This document shows positions 43,845-64,000 of a DNA stretch of 64,000 bases, piece after piece. Origin of the DNA: Psococerastis gibbosa (Eukaryota > Arthropoda > Insecta > Psocodea > Psocidae); NCBI GenBank assembly GCA_963971405.1, contig OZ020487.1:35313039-35377038 (forward strand), written 5' to 3'. The position numbers and the translations under genes were made by a program. The notes beneath the pieces were generated by a model. That model did no database searches and had not been told where the DNA came from. It saw only the letters and a program-made list of their open reading frames with translations. Every line of letters starts with the position of its first letter. The stretch's first letter is position 1.

Positions 43845-44485
43845 CACTGCACCTGCATCGGCCAGATTTACTCGTATATCAGAACCTGCAATCCATTATG
43901 TCGACGGCATTGGCTCAGCATTTGTGGGCGACATGCCTCGGTGACTCTTGATCTGAATCTGAAGTATGATGCTTATCGAGGTTGTCAAGTGATAACAAAA
44001 AAAAAATTAAAACCATTTGCGGCACATGTATCCGGCATCGGCATTGCTTGTCAACATAGAGTGTACAAAACATAACGTTTCTGGGCATATTTTTTTACTA
44101 ATGCCTAAGAAAATTAATTTAATTGAACCTTTACTGAGCAGAAAAAACTCATTTGACTTACATTTTGGAGTAAAATTATTTTGCAGCTGCAAGACTGCAT
44201 AATTGACTGAGTTATCGTCCTTGCCAGCAGCCAGGCTTTTTTCGTCAGGAATCTTCCACTCGTCCCAGCGGCAGTGCCACCGCAAAAGCTTCCATGTCCG
44301 GACCGCCGTTGCACAAGCTGCTCATTAAGTAAGCCTATTCGACGAGGACGACCTCCGATAATGCCTCTCGTCCTCCTTGGTGATGACGCATAGAATGCTG
44401 AAACAAAAATGGTAATTTAAAAAATCCGTCTAATCATCTAGTGTAGGCAGCTTTCTTAAGACTGCTTCCATATTGAGACGCGTTG
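43845..44485. repeat. Complex repeat, left copy (blocks A and B)
   Basis: Block A (43850-44010, with TTTACTCGTATA and TATGTCGACGGCATT) matches 58375-58540. Block B (44075-44485, with GCAGCTGCAAGACTGCATAA) matches 57840-58245. Both are direct matches, but in the right copy B comes before A, so the order is rearranged. No gene is recognised. Confidence 0.7.
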
Positions 44486-44529
44486 CAGCCTACCAGAATT
44501 TATAAATAACTGAACATTGAGAAATCTAA

Positions 44530-46180
44530 AATGATAAATAGCCCAGGGTAGATAATTTTTTTTAAGACATTAAATTATAGTAGAATGAAACCCATTGGAA
44601 ATGGAAGATAATATGCCAGACATTAAGGGAAAAATAAATTACGGGCGATCTGAGTTCGGGAGGCAGGTAGGGGTGGTTTTTAAGGGTGAAATACGGTACA
44701 TTTTCATTTCCGACAAAACTACAAGTCTTATGGAAAAACGTCAAATAGCAAAAAGGTGGATAATAAGATGAACAACTTTAGTGAGTGATGACACTTTTTT
44801 TCACATAACCTCAAATTTTACGAGAAAAATGCCAAAAACCAAGGTTTTGGTTTTTATTTTTAACTTTCACAAAAAAAAAACTTTTTACGTGAAAATGGAG
44901 TTCTTGCGCAGGTAAAACAAAGATGGCGGGCTGTCGGAAAGGGAGGGGGTACCCCTGATTCTCGGACATCACCCCCTCATTTTAACATGGAGTGTATAGG
45001 CTTTCCAATGAAATTTATTTTATTTTAAGAAATTTTCGCTTTTCAACGGCAAATTAGTGCTATTTATATGTTCCTTAAATACTTGCGCGGGTACTGACAA
45101 AAAATTGCGGCAAAGTAGCTGCAAATAATTGTCAAAAAATATTATTTACTTGTGTATCTAATTTTATTTCATTGGTTATGATACTTCCGCGAGGGCAGAA
45201 CAGATTTTTAAATGGGTATGTGAGCCTAAGCTTGCTTATACATATTACAATTAATGTATTAGTAATGATTTATTACCATAACCATACAACTTTACTGCAT
45301 AACTACCATGAAATATAGCCTAGTCGGCTGGGCTGCCGACACGCTAGCCGGCTAGCCTATCATGTTGTTTGCAAATATTAGTAGCGTAAAAAGGGGTTAT
45401 TGTCTGTCTCTCCATAATACTATCACTAGAATTCAATTTAGTATCTGAGCACCAAAGCAGTTAATTTTCGTAGGGCCCAGCTTTTGTTTTCGGGGGGGGG
45501 GGGGGTCCGGAAACATTTTTTACGTAATTTATTAATGAATTAATGGATAAATTCTTCAAACCATACAGGTTTACCTGCAGAAATTTATTTCGGGGGGGGG
45601 GGGGGGTGCGGACCCCATGGACCACCTCCTGGGCACGGCCATGCATATATATGTGTATTTTGTAACTTTAAATATTGTGGACTTCGTTCTGCCACAAAGA
45701 TGCAACCTCCACTTGCATTTCTTAGTTTTTTTCCAGTGGCTTGGGGAACGATATAATTCGGACCTCTCTCATATGTGTTCTGTCCTGGTGTAGGCTATCA
45801 CTATTACACAAGCCATAACAGCAATGCTTGACCATAACGCTAGAAATATGAATAATAACAACTTAAAACTGTAAAAATCAATAGCGCTCAATTGCATTTC
45901 ATATCCTCCAATGGCCGAACAGCTGATTTTGTTTACATTATTTTCGCAATCACGCATGCGCTGTTAGCTCCGCCCTCTTACTGTGACGTCACTACGCAAG
46001 AACTCCATTGGGGAGAACTTTCTTTTTTATATTTTGAATGCACTGTAATTTTTTAATTTAAAATATTAATATTTTCCCACTAATTTTGACTTATATATGG
46101 AAAAATCACCCTAATTTTCAATCGAAAAATCTCAATGATGTTTCTAATATTTAAAACTTATAGTCCGGTCAATTTAGTTT
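44530..46180. mobile_element. Left arm of a large foldback repeat
   Basis: 44530-44895 and 46006-46180 are reverse complements of 57360-57745 and 57041-57345. Examples are GGGGTGGTTTTTAAGGGTGA on the left against TCACCCTTAAAAACCACCCC on the right, and CCGGTCAATTTAG against TGAATTGACCGG. The part between (44896-46005) is a separate insertion absent from the right arm. Before the later insertions the palindrome was about 1.3-1.5 kb with a loop of about 170 bases (46181-46349). Confidence 0.78.
44895..46006. mobile_element. About 1.1-kb inverted-repeat element inside the foldback arm
   Basis: The ends read ATGGAGTTCTTGCGCAG (44895) and, on the opposite strand, ATGGAGTTCTTGCGTAG (ending near 46008). 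The right arm of the foldback shows the corresponding uninterrupted sequence around 57350-57365. It contains two long G runs (45490 and 45593) and no transposase ORF. Confidence 0.65.
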
Positions 46181-46349
46181 ATTTAAGCCCTATATATTCT
46201 CGTATATCTGTGTCAATCAGCTCTAAAATAAAAATTGCAATATTTTCGTTCTTAAATAGTATGTTTAACGTTACATAACCAAAAAAAATAAAATCGAATC
46301 ATATTTTAGTGCAATATTAGATGCGAGTTATTGAAATATTGGATGACTG

Positions 46350-46652
46350 TGTGGGGACCACTTAGTCCCACATGTGTAATAACCAGTCTGCTTCCAGCTT
46401 CACCTTTTTCCCGTTAGATGGCGCTGTTCACATTCAGATAATTCAATATTCCTCAATCTTCCTTTTACGTATTTATTTCTCTTATTCAATAATATCTTTA
46501 ATCTACCCTCTGTGTCTCATCAGCTCCTTTAGCTGTGGACACAGAGTTGGTTTTTCTATATGGAAGCAGGCTGGATCAAATTCAATATTAATTGTAAGCA
46601 TGTATCGTTCTCGTCTCACAGCTCATATTGTAACCACTGTGTGTTAAATTAC
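46350..46652 (+). repeat. 5' LTR, first part
   Basis: Begins TGTGGGGACCACTTAGTCCC and is equal to 56654-56956. It is interrupted after TGTTAAATTAC by the Jockey element; the rest of the LTR resumes at 52025. The start contains a small palindrome, GGGACCACTTAGTCCC. Confidence 0.92.
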
Positions 46653-46690
46653 GATTCGGTCCCGAGCTCTCGTACGTGCAGGACCTATGT
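46653..46690 (+). promoter_or_regulatory. Candidate internal promoter of the Jockey element (start plus DPE)
   Basis: The element begins GATTCGGTCCCGAGC. If A46654 is the transcription start, positions +28 to +33 (46681-46686) read GGACCT, an exact fit to the arthropod downstream promoter element RGWYVT. Jockey-family elements use such TATA-less internal promoters. Start assignment is inferred from the insertion boundary. Confidence 0.55.
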
Positions 46691-47113
46691 TCTGACCGCC
46701 CGAGCCTCTCTGCCCGAACTTTCTCTTCTTGTGTACTTGGTGTCCCAGCGGGTGTTCCTTTCAGAGCCTACCCGTTGAGCCACCACGTGCTCAATATTTA
46801 TATTTCTTTACACCGCACCGTGATTATACTTCCCCTACCCCAATTAAAAATCAGTGTTTATAAACGCTACTCCTCTTCCTCTCCTCTTTCATCATCTTCA
46901 AGTTTCACCGTGGGACCTGCCTGAAGCCTTCCGGATCGGCTGCCCCCGTGCTGCTGTGGTTCTGCTGCTGCTGCGCCGTGGTGCTACTGCTGCGGCACTG
47001 CTGTTCTTGAGCCTCCTGGTTTCCTCCAGGCCCCAAATCGCCTGAGCCGCTGTCCCCGCTGACGGTGGCCGACCTCCCAGACCCTCACACGCAGAGCTGG
47101 TAAGCATCCTGCA

Positions 47114-48535
47114 ATGCCCCTGATTCCCGACTCCCCCCTCAGCCCTGATCCGTCCCAGGAGGACATGGACACCCGTCCAGTCCCTTCCGGCGACGCCACC
47201 TCCCCTCACCTCTCAGCTCCTGACGACGGATTCACCACCGTCAGCAAGAAGCGACCTCGCCCTTCTTCGCCTTCAACCCAAACGGCCCCAGGTCCTGCTA
47301 CTGCTAAGCCTAGCGCCCGTCCCGCGCGCCTCCCGCCTCTCGTCTTTCCTGTCCCAGCCAATTGGACCTCAATTGCCCCGAAACTTAAATCCATCTTCGG
47401 CACCACGGACAGCCACATCCGTCTCCGATCGAACAATTACGTTATCCAAACCAGAGACCCGGACGTGTACAAGAATGCCCGTTACCTACTTAACTCCCTT
47501 AATGTCCCATTTCACACCTTCTCTCAGGACGCCGAACGCGAAATTAAGGTCCTCATTCGCGGTCTGCACCATTCCACCTCTCCCGAAGTCATTAAAGACG
47601 CCCTCACCGCCCTGAACTTCCAAATTTCAGCGGTCACAAACCTCACAAATCGGCAGAAAGTCGAAAAATCTCTTTTTCTCGTCAAAGCCAAAAACACCCC
47701 TAACGCCAGCGAAATATACAAAATTTCCGTCCTACTTCTTCTCGACGTTACGATTGTCCCTTATAAACCCCCTAACACCCTTCAGCAGTGTTACAACTGC
47801 CAGTTATATGGGCACAGCTCCGTCAACTGTTTCCGCCCTGCCGTTTGCATCAAATGCAGCGGCTCCCACCGTGCCTCCGCCTGCCCTCTAGGCAAAAGGA
47901 TCCCCAAGGAGCTTCTCTCCTGCCCCAACTGCAAGGGTCACCATGCCGCTAACCACAGTGGTTGTCCAGCCCACAAGGCTAGACAGGCTGCCATTGCATC
48001 TAAGCCCCAAAAAGCCCCCCCTCAGCCCGCCAAACCTGCCTTCGTCCCTGCACCCATCCCCGCAACAAACGCCTGGACTCCCCCTTTCAACTTTCTCATG
48101 GCCCCAATCACAACCCAGACTCCGTCCAGCCCGTCAGGGCCGCCTGCGGCACCCCCTGTCCCTGTCCCGACGGTACCCAACTCTACTCAATCGCCCATCC
48201 CTAAGGTAAAACCGACTAATTCGATTCGTGAAAAATCGACTAAGTCAGCTCCCAAGAAATCGATTATTCCTTCCCAGGTAAAATCGGCTAAGTCTGCTCG
48301 CCCCAACAAGCCCAAAGTTAAGACCCCCCGAAACCTGTGTTTTCAACCCCAATCCAGTGTGCCCGAACCCACACAGGCCCAGTCCATCCCTTTTCTGATC
48401 AAGATACTCACCTCTTCATCCTTCCACACCTGGCTACTTACCCTTCTCCCTGCCTTGTGCCAGTGCACAAATGCCCAATCCCTAATAACCACCCTCATGG
48501 CCCACATCCCTTCCCTGCTTCCTCTATGGCAGTGA
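47114..48535 (+). CDS. Jockey ORF1, Gag-like nucleic-acid-binding protein
   Basis: 473 residues. The N-terminal third is proline/serine-rich and probably disordered. Residues about 95-210 fit the RNA-binding/PRE_C2HC part of Jockey-type Gag. Three zinc knuckles follow: CYNCQLYGHSSVNC (from residue 226), CIKCSGSHRASAC, and CPNCKGHHAANHSGC. The C-terminal part is again Pro/Lys/Ser-rich, with repeated KSTKSAPKKS-like basic stretches. The family role is binding element RNA and forming RNPs. The stop TGA overlaps the start of ORF2 by 10 bases, suggesting coupled translation. No frameshift is seen. Confidence 0.9.
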   Translation: MPLIPDSPLSPDPSQEDMDTRPVPSGDATSPHLSAPDDGFTTVSKKRPRPSSPSTQTAPGPATAKPSARPARLPPLVFPVPANWTSIAPKLKSIFGTTDSHIRLRSNNYVIQTRDPDVYKNARYLLNSLNVPFHTFSQDAEREIKVLIRGLHHSTSPEVIKDALTALNFQISAVTNLTNRQKVEKSLFLVKAKNTPNASEIYKISVLLLLDVTIVPYKPPNTLQQCYNCQLYGHSSVNCFRPAVCIKCSGSHRASACPLGKRIPKELLSCPNCKGHHAANHSGCPAHKARQAAIASKPQKAPPQPAKPAFVPAPIPATNAWTPPFNFLMAPITTQTPSSPSGPPAAPPVPVPTVPNSTQSPIPKVKPTNSIREKSTKSAPKKSIIPSQVKSAKSARPNKPKVKTPRNLCFQPQSSVPEPTQAQSIPFLIKILTSSSFHTWLLTLLPALCQCTNAQSLITTLMAHIPSLLPLWQ

Positions 48536-51210
48536 ATTTCCTGTCCTTTAACATTCGAAGCCTCAAACCCAGGACCTCCGAACTCGGGAATTTTCTTTCC
48601 GAGCACAAGGTCGACGTATGTTTTCTCCAAGAGACTTGTTTGTCCCCAAACAAATCCCTTTCTCTGTCGCCATACCTGGTTTACAGAAAAGACAGGCCAG
48701 ACGCCCGTACTGCCCGTGGAGGTGTGGCTGCCCTTGTCCACAGGGACATCCCACACGCTCCCATCACCATTCCTGACATGCCTTCTATAGAGTGTGTTGG
48801 TGTTATTACCAACATATGTGGTACGCCCACTGCCTGCTTTTCAATCTACTCCCCGGGAACCCAGCCGATTCCGCGGAAAGACCTCGAGCTGCTGTTCGGC
48901 GCCTTTCCTGCGATATTTGCTGCAGGTGATTGGAACTCTAAGCACCCGGAACTGGGCAGCCAGAGAACCAACAGCCGTGGTACCTCCCTTCTCCGCTATG
49001 TTTACTCTACAGAGCGTGTTATCGACCTTCATATACCCCTAACTCCCACTTTCGTTATTTCCCGAAACGATACCCTATACACAGAAACCCTTGACTTTGG
49101 CTTAACCATTGAGGTTCCTGTTCATCCCACCATCAACGTTATCGACGACCTCACGTCCGATCATCTCCCTGTTCTTTTCTCCTTCCCACGCCAGGCCGAA
49201 CCTCCCACGCCAGCTGGTCCCCTCAGGACAAACTGGCGTCTTTATCATGACTCCCTTGCTGACTGCTTACCACCTCTCCCTGCCACTCCAATGTCTCCCA
49301 TAGACATTGAAGCTCATCTTGAGGCCCTCACTCAATCCTTTAAATCAGCAATCTCCACAGCCTCTGCTCCCGCGCGCCCTCGCACCATCCGCTCTCTTCC
49401 GCCCGTGATTGCTGACGCCATTCGTTCCCGAAGGCGTTCACGCAGGCTCTGGCAGGCCACGAAAGCCCCCTCCCACAAGCGCGACTTTCTTGTCGCTGCA
49501 GAACACTGTAAGCTCCTCCTTGAAGAAGACAGAAGCTCTCGATGGGATAGCTTCGTCAACGAAGTCACCTCCGAAGGCCTAAACCCCTGGCCCGCCTCAA
49601 AAGCCCTCCTCAGAACCAAAACCCAAATCTCTCCTCTTAAGCAAAACAACAACCTAGTCTTCGACCCTGAAATTCGTTGTCAAGTCCTAGCGGACCACTT
49701 CGAATCTCAGTTCTCAGTTCCCGCCACACCCTCTCCTGTTGAAGCAGAGGCGAAAATAGCAGTTCGCGAAGCCCTCAACTCTCAAACTCCCATGCCCATT
49801 CAACCCTTTACTCTCCTCGAAATGGCTTCTGCCCTGGGAAAAATCAAAGTCAGGAAAGCCCCCGGCCCCGATGGTATCTCTGGGAAAGCCATTAAAAACG
49901 CCCCTGTAAACCTCATAACCCACTTACTCTTGGTGTTTAACGCCATTCTAGCCACACAGCATTTCCCACAGGCTTGGAAAAATTCCAACATTATCACCCT
50001 CCTAAAGCAGTGTAAACCGCCAACGGATCCTGCCAGTTATCGCCCAATCTCCCTGCTCCCCACACTATCGAAACTCTTTGAGCGTCTATTCCTTCTGCGT
50101 CTAGGCCCAATGCTAGAGCCCCACCTCAGACCCGAACAGTTTGGCTTCCGGAAAGGCCTTTCCACCACCCACCAATTAATGCGCTTCTGTTCCCACATTA
50201 GCGATAATATAAACCGCAATAAGCACACCATTGCCGCCCTTATCGATTTTCGCGCCGCGTTCGATACTGTATGGCACCTTGGCCTACTCTTCAAACTCTC
50301 TCGCATGGTCCCCCCACCCGTGATCCGTTTGATAGATTCCTATCTATCAAACCGGTTCTTTCGCACCACTCTCCGAACAAAAACCGGTACTTTCTTCTCC
50401 CGCCCCACACCAGCGGTTGCAGGTGTACCACAGGGGTCCGTCCTCGGTCCTCTGCTCTACTTAATCCACATTAACGATATCCGCGTACTAGACGGGCTGT
50501 CAGTCGGTCTATACGCGGACGACGCAATATACTACATGGGGACTCATTTCCCCAAAGCCGCCGCGAAAAATTACCTCCAACCCCAACTTAATGCCCTTGC
50601 TGAATGGTGTAACACTTGGAAAGTCATGGTAAATGCATCCAAGTGTGAAGCCATCGTCTTTGGTAGGTCTTCACCAAAGTCCCCTCCCGCCGCGTTGACC
50701 CTAAATAACTCTAAACTCCCATGGCAAAAGTCAGTTAAATACCTTGGTGTAACACTTGACAGACGCCTTTCTTTCCGCACTCATCTCCGCCTTCGAATTG
50801 CCAGCATTCGCGGTCTAACCACCAAACTTTTTCCCCTTTTTCGCAACGATACACTCAGTTTCCGCGCCAAAGCCCTCATTTTCACGGCAATAGTCCGAGC
50901 TCAGCTCACTTACGCCGCCCAAGTATGGTTCCCCATGCTCTCAACTTCTGCCCAAAAATCCCTGCTAGGTTGCCACAACGCGGCGCTTCGCCGTGTAGGA
51001 AATTTCCACCACCGTGTCCCCAACACTCAAATATTTGAATTTTTCAACGTCCCGCCTCTAAACGATTTTCTTGCAGCCTTGTCTGATTCCCATCACGCCA
51101 AGGCCGCCCAGAGCTCTCGCGATATTATACGCGACCTCTACTCCGCCCCCCACCCCCCAAACCTATTTAAGATCTCCCCAATCCCAGTCCCCCCGGACGG
51201 GTCAGCCTAG
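48526..51210 (+). CDS. Jockey ORF2, endonuclease-reverse transcriptase
   Basis: 894 residues if read from ATG 48526, chosen because it overlaps the ORF1 stop and begins directly with the endonuclease motif NFLSFNIRSL. The frame is open further upstream (48337), but there it overlaps ORF1. The apurinic-type endonuclease has CFLQET, AAGDWNSKHPELGS and DHLPVLFSF. The reverse transcriptase has KAPGPDGISGKAI, SYRPISLLPTLSKLFER, DFRAAFDTVWH, AGVPQGSVLGPLLY and the catalytic LYADDAIYY. A C-terminal thumb-like region follows and there is no RNase H. The protein would nick the target and copy RNA at the nick. No stop or frameshift is seen. Confidence 0.93.
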   Translation: MAVNFLSFNIRSLKPRTSELGNFLSEHKVDVCFLQETCLSPNKSLSLSPYLVYRKDRPDARTARGGVAALVHRDIPHAPITIPDMPSIECVGVITNICGTPTACFSIYSPGTQPIPRKDLELLFGAFPAIFAAGDWNSKHPELGSQRTNSRGTSLLRYVYSTERVIDLHIPLTPTFVISRNDTLYTETLDFGLTIEVPVHPTINVIDDLTSDHLPVLFSFPRQAEPPTPAGPLRTNWRLYHDSLADCLPPLPATPMSPIDIEAHLEALTQSFKSAISTASAPARPRTIRSLPPVIADAIRSRRRSRRLWQATKAPSHKRDFLVAAEHCKLLLEEDRSSRWDSFVNEVTSEGLNPWPASKALLRTKTQISPLKQNNNLVFDPEIRCQVLADHFESQFSVPATPSPVEAEAKIAVREALNSQTPMPIQPFTLLEMASALGKIKVRKAPGPDGISGKAIKNAPVNLITHLLLVFNAILATQHFPQAWKNSNIITLLKQCKPPTDPASYRPISLLPTLSKLFERLFLLRLGPMLEPHLRPEQFGFRKGLSTTHQLMRFCSHISDNINRNKHTIAALIDFRAAFDTVWHLGLLFKLSRMVPPPVIRLIDSYLSNRFFRTTLRTKTGTFFSRPTPAVAGVPQGSVLGPLLYLIHINDIRVLDGLSVGLYADDAIYYMGTHFPKAAAKNYLQPQLNALAEWCNTWKVMVNASKCEAIVFGRSSPKSPPAALTLNNSKLPWQKSVKYLGVTLDRRLSFRTHLRLRIASIRGLTTKLFPLFRNDTLSFRAKALIFTAIVRAQLTYAAQVWFPMLSTSAQKSLLGCHNAALRRVGNFHHRVPNTQIFEFFNVPPLNDFLAALSDSHHAKAAQSSRDIIRDLYSAPHPPNLFKISPIPVPPDGSA

Positions 51211-52013
51211 TTTTAAATCCCCTCTCCTTCCTCTCTCCATAGGTTCCTCTCGGGTCCGCTTGCCCACCGGGTTCGCCTGGGGAATTACAGAGAAGATCCG
51301 GATGGACCCTGAAATATGGCAACCCAGCCTGGATCGTTAGTCCCCCCCAGGCGCTAAGCTCGTGGGCAACCCGGACACGTGAGTCAGAACCACAGAATGC
51401 CCCCAGTATTCAGTTACTCCCCCTTTAAATATTTCGCTCGTTCACAGTTTTTTTTAAAACACATAACTCCTTCGACTCGCGACCACCGGTCTCCAGATCA
51501 CCGCTCTGCAGCTTGACGGACTACTGGTGGTTTGCCTTGTACCTTTAAAACCGAGCTCATCTAGGCCCCCCCCGGCCCAACTAATTTCATTGTCTTTTTA
51601 CGTTTTCAGCTACATACACCTAACGAACAAACTAACTAACGCCACATACTCGAACTCAACCCCAGTACGGTAAACCGCGCCTTACCAGTTACCGTACTGT
51701 TACAATTTTCAATCCTCTCCACTCTCATTCCACCGTCCGAGTTCCTCCCAATATATCCATCCCTTCCCTTAAGTAATGAACGTTTTCTTCCAGCGTCTAC
51801 AGGATCCTACCTGACGTGAGATGGTAGTGGTTTTTAGAGGGTCGGCTGGCGGCCTACTCGAGGTTGAACGCTCAGTTAACCCCTCACTACCTGGATGCTA
51901 TCCTGATTCACTCATGCCGGAGCATGACCGTGTTGAAAGGAGGCAAGTAAAGGCACAGGTGCTTGGTTTGCAAGTTTTCCACTTCCGCAGAAACAACAAA
52001 AAAAAAAAAAAAA
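51211..52013 (+). other. Jockey 3' UTR and A-rich tail
   Basis: Non-coding sequence after the ORF2 stop, ending in AAACAACA followed by an A run directly before the 11-bp target duplication. A 294-residue ORF that begins here and runs on into the LTR leader is a chance read-through. Confidence 0.8.
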
Positions 52014-52024
52014 TGTTAAATTAC

Positions 52025-52108
52025 TCTAACTTGAGTCGAAGCACTGCAATACAAACCAATTCAAGTCTACACTGCCTATTCAATTGCATCGTCCTTCGAC
52101 AAGCTACA
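52025..52108 (+). repeat. 5' LTR, second part
   Basis: Continues the 5' LTR after the Jockey insertion and equals 56957-57040, ending CAAGCTACA. Confidence 0.9.
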
Positions 52109-53469
52109 TTGGTGACCCTCGACAACGGAACAAGCAGCCTTCCAGTTCCAGCTCCAGTTCCAGCTCCAGTTCCAGCTCCAGTTCCAGCCAGTTCCAGTTC
52201 CAGCCAATTCCAGTTCCAGCCAATTCCAGCCAGTTCCAGCCAATTCCAGCCAGTTCCAGCCAGTTCCAGTTCCAGCCAGTTCCAGTTCCAGCCAGTTCCA
52301 GTTCCAGCCAGTTCCAGTTCCAGCCAATTCCAGCCAGTTCCAGTTCCAGCCAGCTCCAGTTCCAGCCAGTTCCAGTTCCAGCCAGTTCCAGTTCCAGCCA
52401 GTTCCAGCTTCCAGCCAGTTCCAGTTCCAGCCAGTTCCAGTTCCAGCTTCCAGCCAGTTCCAGTTCCAGTTCCAGCCTCCAGAACGTCTCATCCGGCCAT
52501 AGGCGGTGGAAACTACCCCGGAGCAGCTACATTCACCGCAGCAGCACAGCCACAACCTGCAAGATGCCGCAGACCACAGCCACAACCGCTACAGCTACGA
52601 CCGCTACAGCTACAACCGCTACAGCTACGACCGCTACAGCTACAACCGCTACAGCTACAACTGCTACAGCCACAACACCGACACCCACGGCTACAACCAA
52701 GATGACAGGCCCTGCTAGTACGATGGCAGTCTCGGTCAAGCTTCCACCCTTCTGGACACAGTCGGCCAACCTGTCACCGGCACTGTGGTTCACTCAAGCG
52801 GAGGCTCAGTTCGCACTTGCTGGGGTCACAATGGAAACGACGAAATATTACCACGTCCTTTCAGCGCTCGACCAAAGTACCCTCAGCGAGATCTCAGATT
52901 TGTTAGCTGCCCCAGTACCAGTAAACCCATACACTGAGCTAAAAACGCAGTTAATCCAACGAATGAGTCTTCCAGCAAGCAGTCGCATTCAGCTACTAAT
53001 GTCGGAAGACATAGGGGACAAAACTCCCAGCTCTTTTCTCCGGAGACTGCGGGCCCTCGCAGAGAAAGCCATATCAGACTCGGTTTTACGCACCATTTGG
53101 ACGTCTCGCCTCCCGCACGCTATACAATTGGCAATCATCGGTCATGATCACCTGTCACTAGGTGACGTCGCGAACCTCGCCGACAAGATGGCCACCATCA
53201 ATTCAGCAACACGTGACCGGATTCTTGAGTGCACAATGGCCCCTGTGGACCTATTGAAGACGTTAACAGAGAACGTCGCGGCTCTACAGGCACAGTTCGC
53301 CGACAGATACGGACAACGTGCCACACAGCCACGGTTCCAGCGCCAGTTCCGTTCACCAGCGCCTAAACAAGACCCAACTTGGTGTTTTTACCACCAAACC
53401 TATGGGAGGAAGGCCAGAAAGTGCCAGCAGCCATGCAGATTTCCGAAAAACGACGATCGCAGCCAGTAA
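52084..53469 (+). CDS. gag: Gag of the CsRn1-type LTR retrotransposon, copy 1
   Basis: The open frame starts within the LTR end; the true start is probably 52702 or 52723 (MTGPASTM, then MAVSVKLPPFW), just before the conserved part. From there it reads LPPFWTQSANLSPALWFTQA, EAQFALAGV and YYHVLSALDQ, typical of Kabuki/CsRn1 Gag. The C-terminus has C-x2-H-x9-C-x3-C (CFYHQTYGRKARKCQQPC, residues 434-451 of the full frame), the unusual CHCC knuckle. Gag is expected to form the particle and bind genomic RNA. Upstream of 52702 the frame crosses two tandem repeats, so that part may be leader. It overlaps pol by at least 91 bases in the -1 frame; G-AAA-AAC at 53445-53451 is a possible but imperfect slip site. 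Confidence 0.85.
   Translation: MHRPSTSYIGDPRQRNKQPSSSSSSSSSSSSSSSSQFQFQPIPVPANSSQFQPIPASSSQFQFQPVPVPASSSSSQFQFQPIPASSSSSQLQFQPVPVPASSSSSQFQLPASSSSSQFQFQLPASSSSSSSLQNVSSGHRRWKLPRSSYIHRSSTATTCKMPQTTATTATATTATATTATATTATATTATATTATATTPTPTATTKMTGPASTMAVSVKLPPFWTQSANLSPALWFTQAEAQFALAGVTMETTKYYHVLSALDQSTLSEISDLLAAPVPVNPYTELKTQLIQRMSLPASSRIQLLMSEDIGDKTPSSFLRRLRALAEKAISDSVLRTIWTSRLPHAIQLAIIGHDHLSLGDVANLADKMATINSATRDRILECTMAPVDLLKTLTENVAALQAQFADRYGQRATQPRFQRQFRSPAPKQDPTWCFYHQTYGRKARKCQQPCRFPKNDDRSQ
52110..52125 (+). promoter_or_regulatory. Primer binding site, tRNA-Trp-like
   Basis: TGGTGACCCTCGAC begins one base after the LTR. The first nine bases match the complement of tRNA-Trp CCA-end sequence (TGGTGACCCCGACG); after that there is one extra T. 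tRNA-Trp priming is usual for CsRn1-like elements. Confidence 0.65.
52138..52486 (+). repeat. (CCAGTT)-based minisatellite in the LTR-element leader
   Basis: About 350 bases of CCAGTTCCAGCCAGTTCCAG-type repeats in 6- and 11-base units. All three forward frames are largely free of stops; in the gag frame it gives Ser/Gln/Phe-rich repeats. The antisense frame gives a Trp/Asn/Gly-rich ORF that is an artefact. Confidence 0.85.
52590..52690 (+). repeat. 15-bp tandem repeat (ACAGCTACRACCGCT)n
   Basis: Several units alternating A and G in the tenth base or so. In the gag frame it encodes Thr-Ala repeats. It lies just before the likely gag start. Confidence 0.8.
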
Positions 53470-55022
53470 AGGCAGGGCCTGCCTGCGCCACTACACACCT
53501 GCTTAAAACCTCACATCGCCTTCTTATCACGGACCCTTGCACCAAGATACGTTATCTCATTGACACAGGGTCCGACATCTGCGTTTTTCCACGTGCCCGT
53601 CTCAACCTACCGCTCCGTCGTACTCAACTCGAGCTGACTGCCGCCAATGGCACAATCATCAATACGTACGGAACAACAGCTCAACAACTGGACCTGGGAT
53701 TACGACGCAGTTTCCGTTGGAATTTCATCATTGCCGATGTCACGCAACCCATCATCGGTGCAGACTTTCTCGCAGCCTCTAATTTGCTGGTGGATCTCCA
53801 GAACTCAAAGCTGATCGACGGGACAACGCATCGCAAGGCGAACCTGTGTCAAAGCCCCTCCAAGCAACCTAGCGTTTCTACCTTAACAATACCGCACAGT
53901 ACCCCGGCCAGTCTAAAAGTAATAATTGAGGAGTTTAGCGACCTCACGCGGCCGAGACAACCCACAGACCAGGTCAAACACTCCACGGTCCACTACATTA
54001 GAACGACAGACGGACCTCCCGTCTCCGCTCGCCCACGCCGGTTGGCCCCGGACAAGTTTATTATCGCCAAAAAGGAGTTCAACGACATGATCCAGACCGG
54101 CGTATGTCGTCCGTCCGACAGCCCATGGGCCTCACCATTACACCTAGTACCTAAAAGCGACCATTCATGGCGCCCATGCGGGGACTACAGACGGCTCAAT
54201 GCTCGAACAATTCCTGACGCGTACCCAGTCCGCCACATCGCAGATTTCAGTGCAGAATTGCGAGGAAAAACCGTATTCAGCAAAATAGACCTGGTCAAAG
54301 CATTCACCCAGATACCAGTTTCCAATGGTGACATTCCAAAGACAGCAATAAATACTCCGTTCGGCCTTTTCGAATTCCCATTCATGACATTCGGTCTTCG
54401 CAATGCTGCTCAAACCTTCCAACGCTTCATGGATAACATCCTACGCGACCTCCCGTGGGCATATTCATACATCGACGACGTACTGGTTGCATCGAGTGAT
54501 AAGCAGGAGCACGAATCACACCTACGTCAACTCTTCCAACGATTCCGAGAATATGGCCTAGTCATTAATCCTAGCAAGTGTACCCTCGGCGTTGGGTCAA
54601 TCAGCTTTCTTGGTTACCTCGTGTCAGCAGAAGGCACACAAGCCCTACCAGACAGGGTAAAGGCACTCACTGAATACCCTCTTCCAAAGTCATTCAAAGA
54701 TCTACGCCGTTTCCTTGGCATGATTAACTACTACCGCCGGTTCCTACCAAATGCAGCCAACGAACAAGCACCACTCAACACGTTGTTATCTGGAGACAAG
54801 GTAAAAGGGAACGCTACGATACCATGGACAACAAAGCTTACCGAAGCTTTCAGCTCATGCAAACACAGTCTGGCACGCATCACCCTACTCGCGCATCCAG
54901 ATCATACGGCTCCGATTGCACTAGTCACAGATGCATCAGACACCAGTATCGGAGCTACAGTCCAACAACGGATCAACGATCATTGGCAGCCATTGGCATT
55001 CTTCTCGCAGAAACTTAAATAA
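53379..55022 (+). CDS. pol: Pol, first part: protease and reverse transcriptase, copy 1
   Basis: 547 residues, in the -1 frame relative to gag. The aspartic protease motif LIDTGSD is at residues 60-66, with GADFLAASNL later. The reverse transcriptase has the SPWASPLHLVPK entry motif, FSKIDLVKAFTQIPV, FPFMTFGLRNAAQTFQRFMD, catalytic YIDD (364-367, nt 54468-54479), and FLGYLVSAEG. The start of the RNase H-like connection reads DASDTSIGATVQQ and PLAFFSQKLK. The reading frame then stops at TAA 55020-55022 and continues in the same frame afterwards. The family makes one Gag-Pol polyprotein processed by the protease. The methionine at 53379 is only the first in frame; expression is probably by frameshift from gag. 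Confidence 0.9.
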   Translation: MVFLPPNLWEEGQKVPAAMQISEKRRSQPVKAGPACATTHLLKTSHRLLITDPCTKIRYLIDTGSDICVFPRARLNLPLRRTQLELTAANGTIINTYGTTAQQLDLGLRRSFRWNFIIADVTQPIIGADFLAASNLLVDLQNSKLIDGTTHRKANLCQSPSKQPSVSTLTIPHSTPASLKVIIEEFSDLTRPRQPTDQVKHSTVHYIRTTDGPPVSARPRRLAPDKFIIAKKEFNDMIQTGVCRPSDSPWASPLHLVPKSDHSWRPCGDYRRLNARTIPDAYPVRHIADFSAELRGKTVFSKIDLVKAFTQIPVSNGDIPKTAINTPFGLFEFPFMTFGLRNAAQTFQRFMDNILRDLPWAYSYIDDVLVASSDKQEHESHLRQLFQRFREYGLVINPSKCTLGVGSISFLGYLVSAEGTQALPDRVKALTEYPLPKSFKDLRRFLGMINYYRRFLPNAANEQAPLNTLLSGDKVKGNATIPWTTKLTEAFSSCKHSLARITLLAHPDHTAPIALVTDASDTSIGATVQQRINDHWQPLAFFSQKLK

Positions 55023-56642
55023 AACCAACGAACATGGTCCGCCTACGATCGCGAATTGCTTGCGGTACACGACGCCATTCGTCATTTCCGTTACCTGCTA
55101 GAAGCGCGCGCTTTTGTCGTGTATACCGATCACAAACCGTTGACGCACGCTTTTCAGAATCCAAAAACAAGTTGCTCACCTCGCCAAATGCGGCAAATGG
55201 AATTCGTCTCTCAATTCACCACGGACATCCAATACATCGCTGGGCAGGACAACTTGGCCGCTGATGCATTCTCAAGAATCGAAGCAATCTCTACTCCCGT
55301 ATCTCCTGAGCAACTTTCTTCTGCTCAGAAAGACGACAGAGAACTCAAAGAGCTTCGGTCCAGTAGAAAGACGTCCCTCATCCTCGTTGATGTTCCCATT
55401 CCGGGCTCTGATTCAGTCATTACGTGCGATTCTAGTCAAGACATACAACGCCCATTTGTGCCCAAACCATTACGTCGACAACTTTTCGAGCACCTACACA
55501 GCCTACATCACCCAGGAATAGCAGCGTCTGCTAACCTGGTTGCCCAACGCTACATATGGCCTTCTATCCGTAAGGATTGCCGCGCTTGGGCTCGTCTGTG
55601 TGTCAACTGTCAATTGTCCAAGATACATCGACACACCCTCACTGCGATTGGAACCTTTACTCAGCCTGACCGACGGTTTCAGCACATACACCTCGACATT
55701 GTAGGCCCATTACCACCGTCGGAAGGCTACACGTATTTGTTAACACTCGTTGACCGTTTCACGCGATGGCCGGAAGCCGTTCCTATGGTGAACATCACCG
55801 CCGAAAACGTCGCCAGAACCCTCATTTCCTGCTGGATCAGCCGGTTTGGGTGCCCGGAGACAATTACTACAGATCGCGGCCGACAGTTTGAGAGCCATTT
55901 GTTTGCTGACCTGGCCCGATTATGCGGATTTCACCATGCACGGACTACCAGTTACCACCCTGCATCCAACGGCATGGTAGAGCGTATGCACCGCTCACTC
56001 AAAGCCTCCATTATGTGTCATGCCAATGACAAATGGACGGAAGCCCTTCCGCTAGTTTTACTGGGCATGCGCGCCACTCTTAAGAAAGATCTTCAAGCTT
56101 CTCCAGCAGATCTGGTCTATGGTGAACCATTAAGACTACCAGGACAGATGCTGACAACTCCTCCTTCAAATCAGAGTCCGGCGGACACTCTCATCTCACT
56201 TCGAAGGAAATTCGACTCACTACGCCCCACTCGCGTCAAGAGACACGGGGCTCATCAAACATTCATCCCACAAGACCTTGCCAAGGCCACGCACGTTTTC
56301 GTGAGACAAGACCACGTCCGTGCTTCCCTCGAACGTCCTTATGCGGGACCATTCCCTGTGTTAAGTCGCACCGACAAAACAGTTACGATTTCAAGCCGCG
56401 GTCGTGCGGTTACTGTGTCAATGGACAGGGTCAAGCCGGCCTACATTAATGCCAGTACAGACGAACCGTCTCACCAGTCTAAGATCAACCCCCCGCATCA
56501 GCATCCTGCTCAAGATAAACCTCAGGAGAAGGTCTCCTCACCACTTCCTGCCACTGACGTCGTGCCGACACCACCGACTCGCACCACTCGCTCAGGTCGT
56601 CACATCCACGTTCCACGACATTTCTCCGACTTCCAGTCTTAG
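55023..56642 (+). CDS. pol: Pol, second part: RNase H and integrase, copy 1
   Basis: Same frame as the first part, beyond the TAA. The first ATG is 55056, giving 528 residues counted from there. RNase H has [11 protein letters not shown] and NLAADAFSR. The integrase zinc domain has H148/H152 and C182/C185 (LCVNCQ). The catalytic triad is D214 (HLDIVGPLP), D273 ([10 protein letters not shown]) and E309 (NGMVERMHR). A GPY/F-like module ([10 protein letters not shown]) and a basic tail follow. All key residues are present. Whether this part is made at all depends on bypass of the stop or internal initiation. It ends at TAG 56640-56642, next to the polypurine tract. Confidence 0.88.
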
Positions 56643-56651
56643 GAGGGGGGT
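56641..56651 (+). promoter_or_regulatory. Polypurine tract of copy 1
   Basis: AGGAGGGGGG directly upstream of the 3' LTR, the expected plus-strand primer site; a copy is at 63767-63777. Confidence 0.8.
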
Positions 56652-56653
56652 AA

Positions 56654-57040
56654 TGTGGGGACCACTTAGTCCCACATGTGTAATAACCAGTCTGCTTCCA
56701 GCTTCACCTTTTTCCCGTTAGATGGCGCTGTTCACATTCAGATAATTCAATATTCCTCAATCTTCCTTTTACGTATTTATTTCTCTTATTCAATAATATC
56801 TTTAATCTACCCTCTGTGTCTCATCAGCTCCTTTAGCTGTGGACACAGAGTTGGTTTTTCTATATGGAAGCAGGCTGGATCAAATTCAATATTAATTGTA
56901 AGCATGTATCGTTCTCGTCTCACAGCTCATATTGTAACCACTGTGTGTTAAATTACTCTAACTTGAGTCGAAGCACTGCAATACAAACCAATTCAAGTCT
57001 ACACTGCCTATTCAATTGCATCGTCCTTCGACAAGCTACA
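56654..57040 (+). repeat. 3' LTR of copy 1
   Basis: 387 bp, TGTGGGGACC to AAGCTACA, uninterrupted. By eye it is identical to the two parts of the 5' LTR. Confidence 0.93.
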
Positions 57041-57745
57041 ACTGAATTGACCGGACTATATTTTAAATATTAAAGACATCATTTTTCGATTTGGTTTTTT
57101 GCATTTTTTACGAAAATTTTGCACAGTGGAGTAGCCTATATTGTTCTTTATACCGTCGGAAAATAGAGATTTCATTTCAACGGACAAAAAGCCTACCTAA
57201 TTTTTAAAAAAAATTGACACATTGACGTGAGATTTTTCGATTGAAAATTAGGGTGATTTTTTCATACATAGTCAAAATTAGTTGGAAAAAAATAATATTT
57301 TAAATTAAAAACATTACAGTGCATTAATAATATTAAAAAGTAAGTTCTACTCCCTAGTTTTCACGAAAAAAGTTTTTTTTTTGTGAAAGTTAAAAATAAA
57401 AAGCCAAAACCTTGGTTTTTGGCATTTTTCTCGTAAAATTTGAGGTTATGTGAAAAAAATGTAATCACTACAGTTGTAGGCTACATCTTATTATCTACCT
57501 TTTGCTATTTGACGTTTTCCCATAGGACTTGTAGTTTTGTCGGAAATGAAGATGTACCGTATTTCACCCTTAAAAACCACCCCTACCAGCCTCCCGAACT
57601 CAGATCGCCCGTAATTTATTTTTCCATTAATGTCTGTCATATTATCGACCATTTCCAATGGGTTTCATTCTACTATAATTTAATGTTTTTTTTCACCATT
57701 TTTCAGGAGATCTACCCTGGGCTAAAACTTGTCGGTATGCCTTCA
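57041..57745. mobile_element. Right arm of the large foldback repeat
   Basis: Reverse complement of 44530-44895 joined to 46006-46180. It starts at the LTR target duplication. It lacks the 1.1-kb insertion present in the left arm. Confidence 0.78.
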
Positions 57746-57784
57746 GGTGGGATGGGATAGGGCAGGAAAAATTCGACTATGTGC

Positions 57785-58580
57785 GAAGAAAACCGCAATG
57801 AGGGTGTTTGAGTATGATGGTGGCAATGTTTACGGGGATATTTTTATTACAAAAGCCACAAGATAATTTCTTAAATTTAACCTTGACCCACGTATTTCTG
57901 AGCAGAGAAGAACTAATTTAACTTACATTTTAGAGTAAACTTATTTTGCAGCTGCAAGACTGCATAATTGACTTGAGTCATTGTCCTTGCCAGCAACCAG
58001 GCTTTTTTCGGAGGGAAGCTTCCACTCGTTCCGGCGGCAGCGCCACCGCAAAAGCTGCCACAGCCTGTCCGGGCCATTGTTGCATGAGCTGGTCATAAGT
58101 AAGCCTATTCGCCGAGGACGACCTCTGCTAATGCCTCTCGTCCTCCCATAGAATGCTGAAACAAAAATTATAATTTAAAAAATCCATCCAATCATCTAGT
58201 GTAGGCAGATTTCTTAAGACTGCATCCGGTATTGAGAAGTGCTGCAACCTAGACGTACTTTTGAATTATAACTCAGTGAAAGTTTTCATATTTATAAATT
58301 ACTGAACATTATTGAGACATGTAAAATGATAAAACTTCTCGCTATGGTGTGGATAGGGCAGGCAAAAGCGGCTGCAACCTTTTGCACCTACCGCGGCCAG
58401 ATTTACTCGTATATAGGTATCAGAACCTGCAATTATGTCGACGGCATTAATGCATTTGTGGGTGACATACCTTGATGACTCTTGATGGGAATCTATGATG
58501 CTCAACGCTGTTGTTACGTGATTACAAAAAAAACTGAAAACATTTTTTCGCGCAAGCATAGCTGATATTGGCATAGCTTG
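57785..58580. repeat. Complex repeat, right copy (blocks B and A)
   Basis: B (57840-58245) and A (58375-58540) match the left copy directly, with divergence. The block order is B then A here, A then B at 43.8-44.5 kb. Confidence 0.7.
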
Positions 58581-60023
58581 TGGACATACAGTGCCTCTTG
58601 TTAGAATCCCCGACTTACCCAAACTTATCCAAGTGAACAATCTAAGCACTGATAGAGACTGCCGAAAACCTGTAATAATTGCTAAACACTTGCAGGTCCG
58701 ATAGAGATTGGCAATAGTTAGTGAGATAGTTATTATGAGTGGCTAGCCTACACTACGGGAACGAAGACGACCTTCCTGAGCTATGAAAAGGAGTAACTGG
58801 AGGGACACAAGTGTGTGGAAAGGTGACAAAAAAAGGCTAAGTTGCAACTTACCGTTTAAGTTGGCAGGTAGACAGTCTAGAAGGCCCTTTTCAACTTGTG
58901 GCCACTGGTCTTGCCACTGGGGTTAGTCTTGGTTTCGGCATTGCGGGTGGTGAATGATGATCTTGACACTGCGGGCGGCGATAGTCTCACCATAGCGGGC
59001 GGTCATGTTTTGGCTATTGACGTTCATACCACAGCGAGTGGGGTTGGCGTTTACACTGTATAAAATAACTAAGATTAAGTACCCTATGTCAAGTTACACA
59101 TCAAATGAAACAACTTTCTGAGGCCTTTAACCTGGTATGTCAAATGGTATACTTAATGGACCCTGCTGTAAATTAAGATGTTTTTAATTTATGTTTTGTA
59201 AACCTAACTCCTAAGGCCATCAATTATGGTCCAGGTTTTTTAATTTCGTACAAATAGGACATGTTCCGTTGCACATCGGTGTTGACTCAAACCTGTAGGC
59301 TTAAATAGTGGCCGCACAGTTGTTCAATACAAAAAAAAAATGAAATAAAAATTCAGTAACTGCATCTGTACCTGCCTTAAAATACTGCGGGCCTACTATA
59401 CCGTTTAGTAGGTATTAACCCATTTCTGGGGTTAAATATGAAAGGTGGATATTCCACCTGTCAATAATCCGTCATTTAATTGTGCATCAATAATTGATGA
59501 GATGTTTGTTTTAAGGAGACTATTATGTAGAAACTTATTATTGATGCACAAATGACGGATTATTGACAGATGGAATAGCCGCCTAAACAAAACAATTTTA
59601 TTCCACTGGAAAATTACCTTGTTTACAATTATATTTTTAATCCGAGGATAAGATTAAAAATAATCGCCATAGTAGGCCCATTGAAAGAAATATTAAGCCT
59701 ACCTTATTCGCCCCAGCTCGTTCCGGCAGCACCCTGAATGAACCTCGTTCGTACAGAAACCCAAAATGCCGCGTAGGCTACATGGAGAAACGTCATCCAG
59801 ACCCATTGCTGTCGTTGGTAGGCCGCTTAAGTTAGCCGGAAGCACTTTCATATACCGGCTGCTATGGCTTCCATATGCCCTCAGCCTCTTCTCTGTCGTT
59901 CTGAAATAACAAAAATGTATAAATTATTGAAATCGGCCAACTTATTCAAAATTCCTCCGAAGCATAGTGAAGTAATATAGAAACAAATAAGATGAATTTC
60001 ATTTTTACTATGGCTCAGTAGCA
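58581..60023. other. Region between the complex repeat and the second LTR-element copy
   Basis: No gene is recognised. 58893-59047 has degenerate repeats around CACTGCGGGCGGCGATAGTC. 59448-59586 is a small palindromic MITE. The segment 59610-59690 recalls the end of the 33.4-34.3 kb inverted-repeat element (TTACCTTGTTTACA). It ends at the abrupt start of the LTR-element copy. Confidence 0.5.
59448..59586. mobile_element. Small palindromic MITE
   Basis: GGTGGATATTCCACCTGTCA, then ATAATCCGTCATTT, pairs with AAATGACGGATTATTGACAG, then ATGGAATAGCCGCC. Single ends of the same family are at 28431 and 28745. Confidence 0.75.
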
Positions 60024-60025
60024 AT

Positions 60026-60595
60026 TTGTTAGCTGCCCCAGTACCAGTAAACCCATACACTGAGCTAAAAACGCAGTTAATCCAACGAATGAGTCTTCCA
60101 GCAAGCAGTCGCATTCAGCTACTAATGTCGGAAGACATAGGGGACAAAACTCCCAGCTCTTTTCTCCGGAGACTGCGGGCCCTCGCAGAGAAAGCCATAT
60201 CAGACTCGGTTTTACGCACCATTTGGACGTCTCGCCTCCCGCACGCTATACAATTGGCAATCATCGGTCATGATCACCTGTCACTAGGTGACGTCGCGAA
60301 CCTCGCCGACAAGATGGCCACCATCAATTCAGCAACACGTGACCGGATTCTTGAGTGCACAATGGCCCCTGTGGACCTATTGAAGACGTTAACAGAGAAC
60401 GTCGCGGCTCTACAGGCACAGTTCGCCGACAGATACGGACAACGTGCCACACAGCCACGGTTCCAGCGCCAGTTCCGTTCACCAGCGCCTAAACAAGACC
60501 CAACTTGGTGTTTTTACCACCAAACCTATGGGAGGAAGGCCAGAAAGTGCCAGCAGCCATGCAGATTTCCGAAAAACGACGATCGCAGCCAGTAA
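60026..60595 (+). pseudogene. gag: Gag, C-terminal part, copy 2
   Basis: 189 residues, the C-terminal part of Gag, same as copy 1 from LLAAPVPVNPYTELK to the CHCC knuckle and the stop. The N-terminal half is missing at the junction. Confidence 0.85.
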
Positions 60596-62148
60596 AGGCA
60601 GGGCCTGCCTGCGCCACTACACACCTGCTTAAAACCTCACATCGCCTTCTTATCACGGACCCTTGCACCAAGATACGTTATCTCATTGACACAGGGTCCG
60701 ACATCTGCGTTTTTCCACGTGCCCGTCTCAACCTACCGCTCCGTCGTACTCAACTCGAGCTGACTGCCGCCAATGGCACAATCATCAATACGTACGGAAC
60801 AACAGCTCAACAACTGGACCTGGGATTACGACGCAGTTTCCGTTGGAATTTCATCATTGCCGATGTCACGCAACCCATCATCGGTGCAGACTTTCTCGCA
60901 GCCTCTAATTTGCTGGTGGATCTCCAGAACTCAAAGCTGATCGACGGGACAACGCATCGCAAGGCGAACCTGTGTCAAAGCCCCTCCAAGCAACCTAGCG
61001 TTTCTACCTTAACAATACCGCACAGTACCCCGGCCAGTCTAAAAGTAATAATTGAGGAGTTTAGCGACCTCACGCGGCCGAGACAACCCACAGACCAGGT
61101 CAAACACTCCACGGTCCACTACATTAGAACGACAGACGGACCTCCCGTCTCCGCTCGCCCACGCCGGTTGGCCCCGGACAAGTTTATTATCGCCAAAAAG
61201 GAGTTCAACGACATGATCCAGACCGGCGTATGTCGTCCGTCCGACAGCCCATGGGCCTCACCATTACACCTAGTACCTAAAAGCGACCATTCATGGCGCC
61301 CATGCGGGGACTACAGACGGCTCAATGCTCGAACAATTCCTGACGCGTACCCAGTCCGCCACATCGCAGATTTCAGTGCAGAATTGCGAGGAAAAACCGT
61401 ATTCAGCAAAATAGACCTGGTCAAAGCATTCACCCAGATACCAGTTTCCAATGGTGACATTCCAAAGACAGCAATAAATACTCCGTTCGGCCTTTTCGAA
61501 TTCCCATTCATGACATTCGGTCTTCGCAATGCTGCTCAAACCTTCCAACGCTTCATGGATAACATCCTACGCGACCTCCCGTGGGCATATTCATACATCG
61601 ACGACGTACTGGTTGCATCGAGTGATAAGCAGGAGCACGAATCACACCTACGTCAACTCTTCCAACGATTCCGAGAATATGGCCTAGTCATTAATCCTAG
61701 CAAGTGTACCCTCGGCGTTGGGTCAATCAGCTTTCTTGGTTACCTCGTGTCAGCAGAAGGCACACAAGCCCTACCAGACAGGGTAAAGGCACTCACTGAA
61801 TACCCTCTTCCAAAGTCATTCAAAGATCTACGCCGTTTCCTTGGCATGATTAACTACTACCGCCGGTTCCTACCAAATGCAGCCAACGAACAAGCACCAC
61901 TCAACACGTTGTTATCTGGAGACAAGGTAAAAGGGAACGCTACGATACCATGGACAACAAAGCTTACCGAAGCTTTCAGCTCATGCAAACACAGTCTGGC
62001 ACGCATCACCCTACTCGCGCATCCAGATCATACGGCTCCGATTGCACTAGTCACAGATGCATCAGACACCAGTATCGGAGCTACAGTCCAACAACGGATC
62101 AACGATCATTGGCAGCCATTGGCATTCTTCTCGCAGAAACTTAAATAA
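60505..62148 (+). CDS. pol: Pol, first part (PR-RT), copy 2
   Basis: 547 residues, same translation as copy 1, including LIDTGSD and YIDD. It ends at the same TAA (62146-62148). Without the gag start, its normal expression route is absent. Confidence 0.85.
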   Translation: MVFLPPNLWEEGQKVPAAMQISEKRRSQPVKAGPACATTHLLKTSHRLLITDPCTKIRYLIDTGSDICVFPRARLNLPLRRTQLELTAANGTIINTYGTTAQQLDLGLRRSFRWNFIIADVTQPIIGADFLAASNLLVDLQNSKLIDGTTHRKANLCQSPSKQPSVSTLTIPHSTPASLKVIIEEFSDLTRPRQPTDQVKHSTVHYIRTTDGPPVSARPRRLAPDKFIIAKKEFNDMIQTGVCRPSDSPWASPLHLVPKSDHSWRPCGDYRRLNARTIPDAYPVRHIADFSAELRGKTVFSKIDLVKAFTQIPVSNGDIPKTAINTPFGLFEFPFMTFGLRNAAQTFQRFMDNILRDLPWAYSYIDDVLVASSDKQEHESHLRQLFQRFREYGLVINPSKCTLGVGSISFLGYLVSAEGTQALPDRVKALTEYPLPKSFKDLRRFLGMINYYRRFLPNAANEQAPLNTLLSGDKVKGNATIPWTTKLTEAFSSCKHSLARITLLAHPDHTAPIALVTDASDTSIGATVQQRINDHWQPLAFFSQKLK

Positions 62149-63768
62149 AACCAACGAACATGGTCCGCCTACGATCGCGAATTGCTTGCGGTACACGACG
62201 CCATTCGTCATTTCCGTTACCTGCTAGAAGCGCGCGCTTTTGTCGTGTATACCGATCACAAACCGTTGACGCACGCTTTTCAGAATCCAAAAACAAGTTG
62301 CTCACCTCGCCAAATGCGGCAAATGGAATTCGTCTCTCAATTCACCACGGACATCCAATACATCGCTGGGCAGGACAACTTGGCCGCTGATGCATTCTCA
62401 AGAATCGAAGCAATCTCTACTCCCGTATCTCCTGAGCAACTTTCTTCTGCTCAGAAAGACGACAGAGAACTCAAAGAGCTTCGGTCCAGTAGAAAGACGT
62501 CCCTCATCCTCGTTGATGTTCCCATTCCGGGCTCTGATTCAGTCATTACGTGCGATTCTAGTCAAGACATACAACGCCCATTTGTGCCCAAACCATTACG
62601 TCGACAACTTTTCGAGCACCTACACAGCCTACATCACCCAGGAATAGCAGCGTCTGCTAACCTGGTTGCCCAACGCTACATATGGCCTTCTATCCGTAAG
62701 GATTGCCGCGCTTGGGCTCGTCTGTGTGTCAACTGTCAATTGTCCAAGATACATCGACACACCCTCACTGCGATTGGAACCTTTACTCAGCCTGACCGAC
62801 GGTTTCAGCACATACACCTCGACATTGTAGGCCCATTACCACCGTCGGAAGGCTACACGTATTTGTTAACACTCGTTGACCGTTTCACGCGATGGCCGGA
62901 AGCCGTTCCTATGGTGAACATCACCGCCGAAAACGTCGCCAGAACCCTCATTTCCTGCTGGATCAGCCGGTTTGGGTGCCCGGAGACAATTACTACAGAT
63001 CGCGGCCGACAGTTTGAGAGCCATTTGTTTGCTGACCTGGCCCGATTATGCGGATTTCACCATGCACGGACTACCAGTTACCACCCTGCATCCAACGGCA
63101 TGGTAGAGCGTATGCACCGCTCACTCAAAGCCTCCATTATGTGTCATGCCAATGACAAATGGACGGAAGCCCTTCCGCTAGTTTTACTGGGCATGCGCGC
63201 CACTCTTAAGAAAGATCTTCAAGCTTCTCCAGCAGATCTGGTCTATGGTGAACCATTAAGACTACCAGGACAGATGCTGACAACTCCTCCTTCAAATCAG
63301 AGTCCGGCGGACACTCTCATCTCACTTCGAAGGAAATTCGACTCACTACGCCCCACTCGCGTCAAGAGACACGGGGCTCATCAAACATTCATCCCACAAG
63401 ACCTTGCCAAGGCCACGCACGTTTTCGTGAGACAAGACCACGTCCGTGCTTCCCTCGAACGTCCTTATGCGGGACCATTCCCTGTGTTAAGTCGCACCGA
63501 CAAAACAGTTACGATTTCAAGCCGCGGTCGTGCGGTTACTGTGTCAATGGACAGGGTCAAGCCGGCCTACATTAATGCCAGTACAGACGAACCGTCTCAC
63601 CAGTCTAAGATCAACCCCCCGCATCAGCATCCTGCTCAAGATAAACCTCAGGAGAAGGTCTCCTCACCACTTCCTGCCACTGACGTCGTGCCGACACCAC
63701 CGACTCGCACCACTCGCTCAGGTCGTCACATCCACGTTCCACGACATTTCTCCGACTTCCAGTCTTAG
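62149..63768 (+). CDS. pol: Pol, second part (RNase H-integrase), copy 2
   Basis: Same translation as copy 1, with the HHCC and DDE residues intact. It is separated from the first part by the shared TAA. The first ATG is 62182. Confidence 0.85.
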
Positions 63769-63779
63769 GAGGGGGGTAA

Positions 63780-64000
63780 TGTGGGGACCACTTAGTCCCA
63801 CATGTGTAATAACCAGTCTGCTTCCAGCTTCACCTTTTTCCCGTTAGATGGCGCTGTTCACATTCAGATAATTCAATATTCCTCAATCTTCCTTTTACGT
63901 ATTTATTTCTCTTATTCAATAATATCTTTAATCTACCCTCTGTGTCTCATCAGCTCCTTTAGCTGTGGACACAGAGTTGGTTTTTCTATATGGAAGCAGG
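63780..64000 (+). repeat. 3' LTR of copy 2, partial
   Basis: First 221 bases of the 387-bp LTR; cut by the window edge. Confidence 0.9.

Follow-up and report, generated by a model that had tools for sequence, protein, structure and literature searches.

Tandem duplications, false duplications in genome assemblies and retrotransposons of the Ty3/gypsy group have each been described with features by which they can be recognized. Among Drosophila species, D. yakuba has 1415 segregating tandem duplications on record and D. simulans 975, of which about 25% are flanked by repeats (excerpt of PMC4503668). False duplications are marked by half depth, gaps between the copies and single-copy k-mers, and false heterotype duplications on one scaffold have been documented (excerpt of PMC9516828). 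The CsRn1 clade of Ty3/gypsy elements carries the Gag motif CX2HX9CX3C (PMC2582038) and a primer site for tRNA-Trp (legend in the same paper). Considered here is a stretch of 64,000 nucleotides from the insect Psococerastis gibbosa (the window; G000:C12:35313039-35377038, in an assembly of 409 Mb in 68 contigs, possibly scaffolds), which holds a long terminal repeat (LTR) retrotransposon, probably CsRn1-like (copy 1), and, from 60024 on, a partial copy of it (copy 2). It is certain that in this assembly the segment 52898-60023 is duplicated head-to-tail, and copy 2 is not a second insertion, because copy 2 continues into a repeat of 57041-60023, the DNA to the right of copy 1, including the target-site half ACTG. 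The reading favoured here is that a recent tandem duplication of this 7126-bp segment probably took place in the animal's genome.

A head-to-tail duplication in the assembly

Positions 60024-64000 and 52898-56874 are the same at 3977 of 3977 bases, with 0 mismatches, at the constant offset of 7126 bp that the original prediction had reported, and the open reading frames (ORFs) of copy 1 recur in copy 2, as it had also stated. Leftward from 60024/52898 the match extends by 0 bases, and this abrupt end of identity at 60024 bears out the claim that copy 2 starts inside gag and has neither a 5' LTR nor a leader; the breakpoint 52898 falls within a DUF7041 (Pfam) match at residues 19-104 of the frame 52687-53466. 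The 64,000 nucleotides contain no N, and self-BLAST of the window returned no further repeat pair above ~370 aligned bases.

The original prediction had proposed following the sequence past 64000 as a check, and there the flank does repeat 57041 onward. In the 10 kb directly beyond the window (L011), the rest of the 3' LTR of copy 2 is followed by ACTG (L011:167-170) and the remainder of the repeat of 57041-60023, which ends with GGCTCAGTAGCA at L011:3154, new sequence beginning at L011:3155. The first copy of the unit (52898-60023, forward strand, 7126 bp) comprises the 3' part of gag, pol, the 3' LTR and a further 2983 bp of flank outside the element (57041-60023), more than half of it being element and the rest neighbouring DNA. 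The second copy, also on the forward strand, occupies 60024-64000 and runs on to L011:3154, its unit measuring 7131 bp. The two copies are thus adjacent, in the same orientation and joined at a novel junction, with non-element flank inside the unit, as in a tandem duplication. Exact identity reaches the window-equivalent position 65477 (partner 58351), and four events separate the copies of the flank, namely substitutions at 59089 and 59632, an indel of 6 bp near 58350 and a single-base change within a run of A near 59331, whereas the element parts of the two units show zero differences. The description of copy 2 as identical to the first is therefore right for the element and wrong for the unit as a whole.

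The flank piece 58600-60023 is matched at ~100% over its full length only at the two tandem places among the 74 matches listed; the other 72, two of which are inverted matches within the tandem copies, cover only part of the piece and reach no more than 94% identity, with 40 of 3647 first-look candidates scored, so that older repeats are undercounted. At the novel junction (60023/60024), ...GGCTCAGTAGCA is joined to ATTTGTTAGC... with no N; in the uninterrupted sequences the flank goes on with AAAGTATATAGG and gag has ...GAGATCTCAG in front of it, and one base is in common, giving at most 1 bp of microhomology. The sole 6-mer common to both sides within 40 bp of the breakpoints is out of register. 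Because the breakpoints share one base, neither the LTRs nor other repeats appear to have guided the join. Another mobile element ending at 60023 was also considered as the cause of the boundary and rejected, as the second flank copy passes this point into new sequence.

The element and its family

Copy 1, the start of which can be added to the original prediction, begins at 46350 and is a clean insertion with ACTG on both sides (46346-46349, equal to 57041-57044). Its 5' LTR is split: the first part (46350-46652), which includes the left target-site duplication of a non-LTR insertion, is 100% identical to 56654-56956 and the remainder (52014-52108) is 100% identical to 56946-57040, so that the 5' LTR and the 3' LTR (56654-57040, 387 bp, TG...CA) agree throughout. 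Between these parts, at 46653-52013, sits a long interspersed nuclear element (LINE) with an ORF1 carrying PRE_C2HC, an ORF2 carrying endonuclease and reverse transcriptase (RT), an A-rich tail and an 11-bp target-site duplication, TGTTAAATTAC; it lies within the 5' LTR despite the youth of the LTR element itself. The internal region (52109-56653), recognized by its ORFs and domain matches, consists of a repeat-rich leader, gag and pol, and all of these parts read on the forward strand. In both flanks, at 43848-46134 and 57228-58545, pieces of the same older repeats are found, 77-93% identical and changed in order and orientation. Scanning the window against Rfam and for tRNAs returned no matches. 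A 135-aa ORF at 26142-26549 is one that we take to resemble part of a Nup160-like nucleoporin, which would point to the genome of an animal, probably an arthropod.

The gag product matches DUF7041, and its ORF holds CFYHQTYGRKARKCQQPC, which fits CX2HX9CX3C, while pol matches RT, RNase H and integrase. The RNase H match is split by an in-frame stop at 55020-55022, which both copies have, and pol is therefore broken. A tRNA-Trp-like primer-binding site, TTGGTGACCC, starts at 52109 or 52110, after the 5' LTR. Because of its LTRs, this primer site, the gag motif, the pol domains and the pol stop, the element is classed as a putative CsRn1-like Ty3/gypsy retrotransposon whose pol is broken, belonging to a young, high-copy family. 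The tRNA-Trp assignment draws on the legend in PMC2582038 together with the 3' end of the tRNA. In the leader (52140-52477; also L001-L010), a TTCCAG-type minisatellite aligns with gaps between otherwise near-identical copies, and its length accordingly varies.

In such a family, identity alone says little about how two copies are related. A 577-bp piece of the element is matched at 100% at 40 of the 40 genome places scored (the best 40 of 328 first-look candidates), and 100% identity by itself was for that reason rejected as proof of duplication and a comparison with fetched loci was made instead. For 52898-57040, the comparison set was 20 fetched loci (L012-L031), holding 21 of the 40 listed places. 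Over the 3' part of gag, pol and the 3' LTR, copy 2 and copy 1 are identical at 4143 of 4143 positions, while the 17 loci that align over the whole region have 6 to 23 mismatches (15 of the 17 gap-free). Three loci (L018, L030 and L031) align in pieces and, among aligned pieces over 1000 bp, one from L018 (1239 bp) and one from L030 (1507 bp) have no mismatch, so that perfect identity with copies elsewhere was found over 1 to 1.5 kb, not over 4.1 kb, in these 20 loci. The pol stop occurs in none of the 21 pol copies there (20 at 19 loci, the last being the L030 copy, with the site in L042), and four sites, the stop included, distinguish copies 1 and 2 from all 17 fully aligned loci. As the pol stop is common to both copies and the flank reaches ~100% only at the tandem places, copy 2 would have been derived from copy 1 as DNA, at this locus.

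Origin of the second copy

The absence of a 5' LTR and leader from copy 2, in a family so numerous, might suggest an independent insertion truncated at its 5' end in reverse transcription or by later deletion. Copy 2, however, has no LTR pair or target-site duplication of its own, and its right flank is that of copy 1; this second occurrence of flank and ACTG, together with the private sites in common, refutes such an origin, to which we give practically no credence. The family, moreover, inserts in another manner: the copies sampled first, with 1.5-kb flanks, extend in 10 of 10 cases upstream beyond the breakpoint and reach the leader. Among the fetched loci, 20 in number and including those ten places, 18 (L012-L029) run LTR-to-LTR with 4-bp target-site duplications, 11 of the 18 having identical LTR pairs. 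In L018 a gap of ~100 bp lies inside the element, and in L030 the element is interrupted by ~4 kb of other sequence, with AACC on both sides. The 20 loci are the best-scoring places on contigs C2 and C3 only, and truncated copies elsewhere are possible. A subfamily of shortened elements beginning at this point of gag was likewise rejected, all ten of the copies sampled reaching the leader. The original prediction was thus sound in doubting reverse transcription as the source, but its second LTR-element copy is better described as part of a tandem duplication that repeats the flank as well. It had also named unequal exchange, and LTRs and flank repeats are indeed present nearby; yet one breakpoint is in gag and the other in flank DNA, with at most 1 bp of microhomology, and exchange between LTRs or other repeats was rejected as having almost no chance of being correct.

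What is left is the choice that the original prediction had rightly framed, between a recent rearrangement and a false duplication in the assembly, and four differences in the flank with none in the element parts fit either. For the real duplication that we favour, the CsRn1-like element would first have inserted with its 4-bp target-site duplication, and a later event at the DNA level may have linked a position in the 3' flank back to one within gag, leaving the 3' part of the element and the flank twice, head to tail. Broken sister chromatids may have undergone end joining, or replication may have switched template, processes which suit a join so nearly free of homology. The tandem structure, the duplicated flank and target-site half, the stop common to both copies and the non-homologous junction are read directly from the sequence; that the animal itself carries the junction, and by which repair pathway it arose, we infer.

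The join is gapless, it offers an assembler no overlap to build on, as far as can be judged, and the assembly is contiguous, all of which suggests a real duplication; an assembler would presumably need a read already carrying such a join. That segregating tandem duplications are common in insects, as the excerpt of PMC4503668 indicates, supports the same reading by analogy. The distribution of the differences weighs against it. All four are confined to the distal 1673 bp, for which the chance under even mutation after duplication is ~0.003 (0.013 without the homopolymer event), and the chance that all fall anywhere in the flank is 0.03 (0.07 without the homopolymer), both intervals having been picked after the data were seen. 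A mix of two haplotypes might explain this uneven divergence somewhat better. In a false heterotype duplication, one haplotype's contig end (60023) would be joined to the other's start in gag (60024) and one locus shown twice. The allele-like look of the four flank differences and a breakpoint at an arbitrary place without homology speak for it, and such errors on one scaffold are on record (excerpt of PMC9516828). Against it, the usual though not obligatory assembly gap is absent from the window, a gapless, overlap-free join would seemingly require a chimeric read or gap filling, and the assembly is contiguous, even if its contigs may be scaffolds; we consider this error rather unlikely, though a serious competitor. 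The uneven flank differences could, moreover, also arise in a real duplication formed between homologues.

Whichever applies, copy 2 reflects a rearrangement of an ordinary kind or, possibly, a slip in the assembly; it is no odd product of the element itself. The apparent anomaly is removed, in that no 5'-truncating retrotransposition of an LTR element is required, and a practical rule follows: in a young, near-uniform family, it is by flanks and private mutations that a duplication at the DNA level can be distinguished from a new insertion. Should reads fail to back the junction, a small assembly error should be flagged.

A compound locus of the same family on contig C2 (L031:1-10000 and L041; G000:C2:10670000-10683999) gives the impression of a single insertion enlarged from within. 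Along the element, AGTT, LTR, leader and gag are followed by a pol that breaks off at the equivalent of ~55032; beyond 2.4 kb of other DNA come LTR, internal region, LTR and AGTT. Here the first copy is 3'-truncated, the second is complete, and AGAC precedes the 5' LTR of the second element. A four-base match such as the AGTT pair has a chance of ~1/256. The two copies align over 2694 bp with 0 mismatches and 37 gap positions, and over a further 559-bp piece with 8 mismatches and 15 gap positions. It is conceivable, though in our judgement improbable, that the ongoing burst of the family encourages local partial duplications at the DNA level, through break repair or template switching in young insertions, with the window and the C2 locus as cases.

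Comparison with known systems

The element resembles the CsRn1 clade in its gag motif and its tRNA-Trp-like primer-binding site, as PMC2582038 gives them, the class being assigned by these motifs. A possible difference is the long minisatellite-bearing leader of this family. With the false heterotype duplications in the excerpt of PMC9516828, the locus shares adjacent, near-identical copies with allele-like differences; unlike them, it shows no assembly gap where the copies meet. The segregating tandem duplications of D. yakuba and D. simulans in the excerpt of PMC4503668 differ in that here one end lies within a young retrotransposon and the duplication is known from the assembly, but the locus is like them in being head-to-tail, young and near repeats.
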